Source of the DNA: Albidovulum marisflavi
GTDB lineage: Bacteria; Pseudomonadota; Alphaproteobacteria; Rhodobacterales; Rhodobacteraceae
NCBI RefSeq assembly: GCF_025751435.1
Contig: NZ_JAOWKY010000003.1
Location: 1 to 64,000 of the forward strand
Reading direction: 5' to 3'
DNA length: 64,000 nt
Shown: positions 60,663 to 62,156 of the stretch, in pieces
How the letters are laid out: every line of letters starts with the position of its first letter
Numbering within the stretch: the first letter of the stretch is position 1
Translations under genes and position numbers: made by a program
The notes under the pieces: generated by a model
Told to the model about the DNA's origin: nothing
The model's input: only the letters and a program-made list of their open reading frames with translations
Database searches by the model: none

Positions 60663-60737
60663 GGCTTGCGATTCGGCGGCTTGGCCATAATCTTGCCCGA
60701 ACTGCCCGCCAGCATGGGGGCACGAAAAGGATGCCCG

Positions 60738-61523
60738 ATGCGCCGCCTTGTCTGGACTCTTTTGCTGGCGTTGCTGCCGTCCTCTGCCCCGGCGCAGGAC
60801 GCGGCGCTGCGCGCACTCACGACGCTGGATTCCGTGCGCGGCTGGGAAGCGGTCGGCCGGATCGACATCGGCCACGGCCGTGGCTTCTGCACTGGAACCC
60901 TGATCGAACCCGACCTTGTCCTGACCGCGGCGCACTGCCTTTACGATCCTGGCAGCAAGATGCTGATGCCGCCCGACGCGTTCGAGTTTCGCGCAGGCTG
61001 GCAGACCGGCCATGCCGCCGCCGTGCGAAAGGGACGGCGGGTGGTGCCGCATCCCGACTATGTCTTCGGGGCGGAAGACTGGGTTTCGAGGGTCTCGGCC
61101 GATCTTGCCTTCATCGAGCTTGACCTTCCGATCCGGGCGCCCACCGCCAATCCGCTCCCCACCGGATCCAGCCCGCGCCGGGGCGACAGGGTCGCGGTCC
61201 TGTCCTATGCGCGGGAGCGTTCCGAAACCCCGTCCTTCCAGTCCGAATGCCGGACCAGAGAGCGCGCCCGAGGCGTGATCATACTGACCTGCGAGGTTGA
61301 TTTCGGCGCCTCCGGTTCACCCGTGCTGAGCTTGGCGGATGGCGCGCCGCGGGTCGTCTCGGTCCTTTCGGGCATGGCCGAGACCAAGGAGGGCACGGTG
61401 GCGCTTGGCATGTATCTTGACCAGCGGCTGGGCGAATTGCGCGCGGTTTTCGACCGGAGCGGAATCAAGGGCTTGCCGGCCTTCACCAAGGGCACTGCAG
61501 GGGCCAAGTTCCTCAAACCCTGA
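60738..61523 (+). CDS. Secreted trypsin-like serine protease
   Basis: A periplasmic or secreted S1-type protease of 261 residues. The signal peptide is MRRLVWTLLLALLPSSAPA. Catalytic residues are H66 in LTAAHC, D122 in SADLAFIEL and S192 in FGASGSPV. Likely disulfides pair C51-C67 and C171-C185. The GxSGSP form resembles the V8/glutamyl-endopeptidase branch. It has no PDZ domain, so it is not DegP. ATG 60738 is chosen for the signal peptide, with AAAAGGATG nearby. Confidence 0.85.
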   Translation: MRRLVWTLLLALLPSSAPAQDAALRALTTLDSVRGWEAVGRIDIGHGRGFCTGTLIEPDLVLTAAHCLYDPGSKMLMPPDAFEFRAGWQTGHAAAVRKGRRVVPHPDYVFGAEDWVSRVSADLAFIELDLPIRAPTANPLPTGSSPRRGDRVAVLSYARERSETPSFQSECRTRERARGVIILTCEVDFGASGSPVLSLADGAPRVVSVLSGMAETKEGTVALGMYLDQRLGELRAVFDRSGIKGLPAFTKGTAGAKFLKP

Positions 61524-61526
61524 GGG

Positions 61527-61555
61527 CTTGAAAGCCCGCGCCTCATTTCCCAAAT
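61527..61555 (+). promoter_or_regulatory. RpoH (sigma-32)-type promoter of hsp20
   Basis: CTTGAAA (61527-61533) and CCCAAAT (61549-61555) are 15 bases apart, close to the heat-shock sigma consensus CTTGAAA with CCCATnT. A transcript would start near 61562, giving a leader of about 82 bases. Confidence 0.65.
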
Positions 61556-61561
61556 CCTGAG

Positions 61562-61646
61562 TGTCGGGACGCCACAACGGGTCCCGGAAAACCTGCCCGT
61601 CCCAAACCGGGAGGGCGTCAGCATCGCTCGATGGAGGATGAACATG
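61562..61646 (+). promoter_or_regulatory. ROSE-like RNA thermometer in the hsp20 leader
   Basis: The leader folds into three hairpins: 61565-61586 (6 bp), 61595-61616 (8 bp with one bulged G), and 61622-61640. In the third, CAUC-CUC pairs with GAG-GAUG around a GAUG loop. G61626 bulges inside UCGCU, the UYGCU signature of ROSE elements, and the GGAGG ribosome binding site (61633-61637) is sequestered. Warming would free the ribosome binding site. Confidence 0.65.
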
Positions 61647-62108
61647 CGCAGTTACGATTTCGCCCCGCTGTACCGTGCGACCGTCGGTTTCGACAGGATC
61701 GCCGACATGATGGACAGGGTCCTGTCCACCGATGGCGGGCAACAGACCTATCCCCCCTACAATATCGAGAAGACGGACGACAACGCCTATCGGATCTCGA
61801 TCGCGGTGGCCGGATTTTCGGCCGATGAGCTGAACGTCGAGGTCAAGGAAGGCGCGCTTCTTGTGACGGCCCGCAAGTCGGCAGAGGAAAGCGAGCGCAA
61901 GTATCTTTACCGCGGCATCGCCACGCGCGCGTTCGAACGCCGTTTCGCGCTGGCCGATCATGTGCGGGTCACGGGCGCGAGCCACGTCGACGGCATGCTG
62001 CACATCGATCTCGTGCGCGAGGTGCCAGAGGCGCTCAAACCGCGCCGGATCGAGATCGCCAAAGGCGATACGGTCGAGGCGAAGGCCGTGGAAACGGTTC
62101 AGGGCTGA
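61644..62108 (+). CDS. Small heat-shock protein Hsp20 (IbpA-like)
   Basis: An alpha-crystallin-domain chaperone that holds unfolded proteins. The 154-residue protein begins MRSYDFAPLYRATVGFDRI and carries the alpha-crystallin domain (about 35-130) with YRISIAVAGFSADELNVEVK and YLYRGIATRAFERRFALADH. The C-terminus lacks a clear IxI motif, though RRIEIAK is similar. I chose ATG 61644 because the GGAGG is six bases before it; the ATG at 61638 abuts it. A terminator follows. Confidence 0.92.
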   Translation: MRSYDFAPLYRATVGFDRIADMMDRVLSTDGGQQTYPPYNIEKTDDNAYRISIAVAGFSADELNVEVKEGALLVTARKSAEESERKYLYRGIATRAFERRFALADHVRVTGASHVDGMLHIDLVREVPEALKPRRIEIAKGDTVEAKAVETVQG

Positions 62109-62130
62109 TCCGCCCCTTTACGATGTCGAA

Positions 62131-62156
62131 GGGCGCGCGGTTGCGCGCCCTTTTTT
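62131..62156 (+). terminator. Terminator between hsp20 and the VWA gene
   Basis: GGGCGCGC (62131-62138) pairs with GCGCGCCC (62143-62150) around a GGTT loop, followed by TTTTTT. It lies between two convergent genes. Confidence 0.85.

Follow-up and report, generated by a model that had tools for sequence, protein, structure and literature searches.

The 82 bases before a small heat-shock gene near the end of a 64,000-nucleotide stretch of Albidovulum marisflavi DNA (hereinafter the window) raise two questions: is the gene controlled by temperature twice, at transcription by an RpoH-type promoter and at translation by an RNA thermometer, and what is the role of those hairpins of the leader that lie away from the start site? 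To the first question the answer is very probably yes: we interpret the locus, with high confidence, as a ROSE-type RNA thermometer situated behind an RpoH promoter and controlling an IbpA-like small heat-shock protein, with the use of RpoH, the melting of the RNA and the translational control being ascribed to it by analogy with studied relatives. Such double temperature control is not new because it has been experimentally shown for the ibpA gene of Pseudomonas putida, where sigma32-dependent transcription is combined with a ROSE thermometer (PMC3669281). ROSE-like motifs have also been reported, in a single sentence, before ibpA and hspD of the Roseobacter Nautella sp. R11 (PMC3230580); these are likewise found in a Roseobacter and before the same kind of gene, but the passage in question mentions the motif without a structure, covariation or a promoter. 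The literature already records ROSE motifs for this clade as well as control by sigma32 plus ROSE, and in this family a three-hairpin thermometer following a heat-shock promoter is nothing unusual. The second question, which is the less conventional one, is taken up after the description of the locus.

The gene (61644..62108, forward strand) codes for a protein of 154 residues beginning MRSYDFAPLYR, which matches the Pfam HSP20 profile with an E-value of 1.1e-19 and is identical to Escherichia coli IbpA in 70 of 138 aligned columns. Its ATG at 61644 is separated by six bases from a Shine-Dalgarno sequence, GGAGG, that can be read directly from the letters of the forward strand at 61633..61637, and an ATG is found at the matching place in the 109 relatives compared. 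A second ATG at 61638 is also in frame, and we rejected it as the start since it abuts the GGAGG and the ATG of the relatives matches 61644. Just 3' of the gene there is a terminator-like hairpin with a T run (62128..62153, forward strand; three overlapping sites found against 0.9 expected), which suggests a single-gene transcript.

Upstream, on the same strand, lie the -35 element CTTGAAA (61527..61533) and the -10 element CCCAAAT (61549..61555). Both could be read from the letters with the spacing of 15 bases that the original prediction had given, and the assignment to the RpoH type that it had made on these grounds is borne out by pattern counts and by comparison with the relatives. Set against the RpoH (sigma32) consensus of CTTGAA, 13-18 bases and CNCCATAT (PMC3669281), the window has the full CTTGAA, a spacer of 15 bases and, as counted by eye, five of the seven specified letters of the -10 element. 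The window contains the pattern CTTGAAA-N13-16-CCCANAT a single time, as against a mean of 0.01 in shuffles. Across the 3.8 Mb genome the strict promoter pattern likewise occurs once and its reversed form not at all; a looser pattern yields 10 matches in the whole genome against three for its reversed form, which provides no evidence for a regulon. Among the relatives, all 103 distinct leaders with sufficient DNA upstream (counting the window; L087, the remaining one of 104, has too little) have a promoter-like element that scores at least 6 over the nine positions scored, as opposed to 2.4 in dinucleotide shuffles; it is located 85-109 bases (median 97) upstream of the start codon. The source genome codes for one RpoH above the cut-off (371.9 bits); another match, which falls below the threshold and lies in a long frame, is probably RpoD. 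Within the wider group, RSP_1016 and RSP_1572 of Rhodobacter sphaeroides are genes that we take to be hsp20 genes. Both are listed in the regulon table of a paper on the RpoH factors of that organism (PMC3441632). Further upstream in the window a trypsin-like protease is encoded at 60666-61523 of the forward strand, with the -35 element beginning four bases past its stop codon.

The original prediction had proposed an 82-base leader with three hairpins. The three hairpins were recovered, while the length presumes that transcription starts near 61562, a point placed by its distance from the promoter; this gives a presumed 5' leader at 61562..61643 of the forward strand. Hairpin I (61564..61587) has the core C-G-CC / GGG, hairpin II (61595..61616) has the form GCCC-G-UCCC / GGGA-GGGC, and hairpin III (61622..61640) contains the anti-Shine-Dalgarno sequence UCGCU at 61624-61628; all three are on the forward strand and emerge from both folds and covariation. 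As had been claimed, this UCGCU pairs with the ribosome binding site leaving G61626 bulged, and its partner, which is thereby masked, can be specified as the AGGA at 61635-61638. The bulged G of this hairpin had further been held up as the hallmark of ROSE elements. It is indeed present there, but it is not special to hairpin III because hairpins I and II likewise carry one, and only one, each: in all three a single unpaired G sits on the 5' strand, at 61571, 61599 and 61626, respectively.

When either 61562-61643 or 61562-61646 is folded, all three hairpins are complete. If the fold is extended into the coding bases as far as 61660, hairpin II retains just two of its outer pairs, since the outer strand is drawn into pairing with the start of the coding sequence, and this pairing also encloses hairpin III. 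The energy of 99 bases comprising the leader and the first coding bases has a z-score of -1.53 relative to dinucleotide shuffles, 18 of 200 of which are as good. Folding energy alone is hence weak evidence, and the case for the leader rests on conservation.

To assess the latter, we assembled the window and 109 further leaders, of which 80 are from the best loci among 283, while another 29 come from family genomes through a search that matched 246 of 248 genomes. The removal of six duplicates from these 110 left 104 distinct leaders; in a joint parse of the hairpins seven of the 104 had no parse, and 88 had the G in both upstream hairpins. A covariance model, R1, was trained on 28 of the relatives with the window left out. 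It matches the window with 68.1 bits (E 2.9e-11) and recovers all 82 held-out leaders, of which the lowest-scoring has 33.0 bits, with the caveat that its training leaders were picked for having both upstream hairpins parse with a bulged G. Thus, the hairpins, whose lack of conservation in relatives would have counted against the original prediction, are conserved. In the source genome the window is the only match above noise (E 3.1e-10, the next being at E 5.1): the search returned it along with just three chance-level matches, and gave no match to the second Hsp20 leader of that genome (L003). Applied blind to 101 genomes sampled from the order, all of which are labelled as belonging to the window's family or genus, R1 matched 95 at E<=0.001 with one match in each, and had none in the other six. 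The top 30 matches of R1, including the window, all end at the start codon of an Hsp20 gene.

For covariation, we realigned the 82 held-out leaders, 76 of them distinct, using R1. In this alignment, which leans towards the structure of R1, 94.8% of the pair cells are standard pairs and changes on both sides are seen in 15 of the 22 pairs, namely 7/8 in hairpin I, 6/7 in hairpin II and 2/7 in hairpin III. An alignment of 89 rows gives 17/22; as it includes seven distant or doubtful rows (the second match in L069 and the leaders L114, L115, L116, L117, L119 and L122), we use the value of 15/22. Hairpin III has 98.7% of its cells paired and three of its seven pairs never vary, and the two helices of hairpin II (helices 2 and 3) have 90.4 and 84.6% paired. 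None of 500 shuffles of the 76 leaders reaches any of five measures of covariation, and the covariation score of 0.36 drops to no more than 0.11 once the partners are shifted by one to three columns. A sequence-only alignment of the 28 training leaders points in the same direction: its covariation score is 0.265 as against 0.173 in shuffles (0/500) and 0.158 upon sliding by one column, with 0/500 shuffles attaining the observed values on four measures and 14/500 on the fifth, i.e., the number of pairs with double changes. The comparison that the original prediction had called for, looking for compensatory changes that keep the bulged G, hence gave a positive result, with 15 of 22 pairs covarying and a G as the bulged base of hairpin III in each of the 76 leaders.

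These features agree with what is described for ROSE elements. The leader precedes a small heat-shock gene, its last hairpin has a U(U/C)GCU imperfectly paired with the Shine-Dalgarno sequence with one bulged G, and its three hairpins, with their conserved structure, fall within the two to four known for ROSE-like thermometers (PMC4166951). The ROSE-like reading is thus upheld by the anatomy, the place before an Hsp20 gene, the compensatory changes and the invariant bulged G.

The Rfam models give a more qualified picture. A search at the gathering threshold missed the element and one at a lower threshold recovered it: RF00435 aligns end to end with the window and scores 25.3 bits where the cut-off is 45, and RF02523 gives 14.8 bits against a cut-off of 43. 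Searching the leader with the ROSE covariance models, the first check proposed for it, therefore yields a full-length alignment with RF00435 but a score below the gathering cut-off for every ROSE model. With the stricter filters of Infernal, RF00435 has six matches at E<=0.01 over 142 genomes sampled from the class, with the cut-off being reached in none of them, and has no match in the source genome or in 14 control genomes. We do not treat this cut-off as class-defining because 0/142 genomes of the class reach it; rather, RF00435 probably under-detects alphaproteobacterial ROSE elements. The comparison presented here cleanly describes a ROSE subclass scoring under the Rfam cut-offs.

The members of RF00435, which we take to be rhizobial (the hspA ROSE elements), share with the window a hairpin I with a bulged G and a Shine-Dalgarno hairpin with UYGCU and a bulged G. 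They differ in that the Shine-Dalgarno hairpin of the window is shorter and the bulged G of its hairpin II is absent from the structure line of RF00435. The structure line of RF02523 (ROSE_3), which we infer to represent the Pseudomonas ibpA type, shows, as in the window, a hairpin I with a bulged G, drawn there as UGCC/GGG; the Pseudomonas element resembles ours in combining a sigma32 promoter with ROSE, but has two hairpins as opposed to three (PMC3669281). The E. coli ibpA thermometer, which matches RF01832 (ROSE_2) at 100.4 bits, shows three bulged-G hairpins in its minimum-energy fold, just as the window does, and CCUGUCC/GGAAGG, the form of its hairpin II, is frequent among the relatives of the window too. 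However, its first hairpin region is longer, its Shine-Dalgarno loop differs and R1 gives it only 24.5 bits (E 0.013). Finally, the ROSE-G motif also has a bulged G facing the Shine-Dalgarno sequence, but is distinguished by a CUGCU, a second bulged G in the Shine-Dalgarno sequence itself and a location upstream of ABC transporter genes (PMC12857270).

We then turn to the single bulged G, which recurs through the leader. In the 76 distinct held-out leaders the unpaired base is a G in 76/76 for hairpin I, 69/76 for hairpin II and 76/76 for hairpin III, i.e., it is about as conserved in the hairpins away from the start site as in the sensing hairpin. Single 5' G bulges number 237 in the minimum-energy folds of the 104 leaders, where shuffles would lead one to expect 7.6, with three such bulges in 48 leaders, two in 39, one in 15 and none in two; other single bulges are rarer than in shuffles, with the exception of the 3' G, which is about equal (8 versus 8.5). 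Furthermore, hairpin I has two pairs inside its bulge whose orientation is fixed as C-G (76/76 and 75/76), whereas the outer pairs are freely exchanged between C-G, G-C and A-U. These fixed inner pairs amount to a demand on the sequence on top of that on the structure.

Beyond the family, we considered 80 further stretches, 16 loci (from a phylum search with matches in 102 of 219 genomes) and E. coli K-12, the loci being hand-picked, and took, from the 80 bases preceding the anti-Shine-Dalgarno sequence, the best hairpin with a single bulge, a measure by which shuffles give a G about one third of the time or less. The bulged base is a G in 43/44 leaders from other genomes of the class, in 23/29 from other classes, in 19/20 of a second Hsp20 subtype (with the match beginning at residue 10-14; source genome included) and in 1/3 of those taken as ibpB. 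The signal is weaker in minimum-energy folds, where 11/44, 10/29 and 8/20 of the first three sets, respectively, have no G bulge upstream of the anti-Shine-Dalgarno sequence. The ibpA-ibpB spacer of E. coli K-12 (L122) has a YGCC/GGG hairpin with a single bulged G preceding ibpB.

The upstream bulged G is already in the database because the Rfam structure lines draw it, either in hairpin I (RF00435 and RF02523) or in the hairpin preceding the Shine-Dalgarno hairpin (RF01832). Passages on the bulged G in PMC3669281, PMC9450479, PMC12857270 and PMC4166951 discuss it only for the sensing hairpin; for the rhizobial Shine-Dalgarno hairpin a G-G arrangement of the syn-anti type is described (PMC9450479). 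A literature search, outside which the founding ROSE papers fall such that a prior mention is possible, gave no text remarking on it in the upstream hairpins. Its recurrence sharpens the question of what the upstream ROSE hairpins do and makes their role directly testable.

The function of the 5' ROSE hairpins is described as not fully understood in PMC3669281, which proposes that they help folding or transcript stability. Correspondingly, hairpins I and II might do no more than assist folding or shield the 5' end of the message, with the bulged G tuning stability or avoiding the cleavage of a long, perfect stem. We give this explanation about an even chance: in Pseudomonas, disruption of hairpin I derepresses a reporter and disturbs the whole fold (PMC3669281), but a role of this kind leaves unexplained both why the bulge of hairpin I is a G rather than an A or U in 76/76 leaders and why its inner pairs have a fixed orientation.

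A more speculative proposal, which we consider rather unlikely, is that hairpins I, II and III constitute an array of bulged-G modules serving for recognition, with the small heat-shock protein itself as the likeliest partner; the protein would then repress its own translation until drawn away by aggregates. Such an array would accommodate the retention of the G in the two hairpins not involved in masking the start site (76/76 and 69/76) and the inner pairs of hairpin I holding their orientation as the outer ones flip. It also has a precedent in E. coli, where IbpA binds its own leader and represses its own message; this binding requires R93, and repression depends on R97 and K98 as well (PMC10474464). 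At these three places the window protein has R, R and R, all of them cationic, so that the cationic character of the residues of E. coli self-repression is kept. In 103/103 distinct relatives the first two places are occupied by R and the third by R or K. Further, IbpA represses IbpB too (PMC10474464), and the spacer between the two genes also has a bulged-G hairpin. In Pseudomonas, hairpin I stays unmelted and the sensing hairpin is still heat-responsive on its own (PMC3669281). On the other hand, L226 has a Q at the arginine place and yet has a bulged-G hairpin, and of the three leaders taken as belonging to ibpB, which lacks the arginine, one has the hairpin and two (L205 and L206) do not. 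A clean correlation between the arginine and an upstream bulged-G hairpin is hence broken by L226, by one of the three ibpB leaders and by the E. coli ibpB spacer, and we do not use it as proof because it is not clean, with L205 and L206 likewise counting as exceptions to its simplest form; moreover, the conservation of the arginine may have other reasons.

By analogy with E. coli, then, the upstream bulged-G hairpins could conceivably be binding sites of the heat-shock protein, though we think this rather unlikely. In its general form, the proposal would hold ROSE leaders to be arrays of two or three YGYY/RRR bulged-G hairpins, of which only the last senses temperature, with the others being Proteobacteria-wide recognition sites for an aggregate-sensing, self-repressing small heat-shock protein; this too we regard as doubtful. 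Were the array real, the sensing of temperature and of aggregates would meet on one leader.

As for the thermometer, which is our preferred reading of the leader as a whole, heat would increase RpoH-driven transcription of hsp20. At low temperature hairpin III would hide the Shine-Dalgarno sequence, and rising temperature would open its weak, G-bulged stem for ribosome binding. Hairpins I and II, computed to be much more stable, would probably stay folded: the calculated stabilities at 37 C are -13.7 and -13.1 kcal/mol for them as against -6.4 kcal/mol for hairpin III. If G61626 is deleted in silico, opening the site at 37 C costs 8.9 instead of 4.5 kcal/mol. With the G in place, the cost falls in the nearest-neighbour model, only gradually, from 5.3 kcal/mol at 15 C to 3.9 at 50 C, over which range the mean computed unpaired probability moves from 0.17 to 0.20; the computed energies show only that hairpin III is predicted to be the weak one. 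This small predicted opening would also suit a heat-shock promoter followed by a structured leader indifferent to temperature, which we nevertheless deem very improbable in the face of the conserved hairpin joining UYGCU, bulged G and Shine-Dalgarno sequence, with its covariation and position like those of tested ROSE elements.

The source genome has other Hsp20 genes. One of these (L001/L231), the third, has neither a UYGCU nor an upstream G bulge in the minimum-energy fold of its leader. The second (L222) lies outside the window, near 228532 of contig C4. Its leader is ROSE-like with two hairpins, and RF02523 matches it at 23.3 bits (E 0.38), under the cut-off of that model; the hairpins are AGGGUU-G-CC..GGGGCCCU followed by GUCGCUU..GAGGAC. 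Elsewhere in the window, at 2219-2281 of the forward strand, Rfam identifies an L2-Alphaproteobacteria ribosomal protein leader with 50.6 bits.
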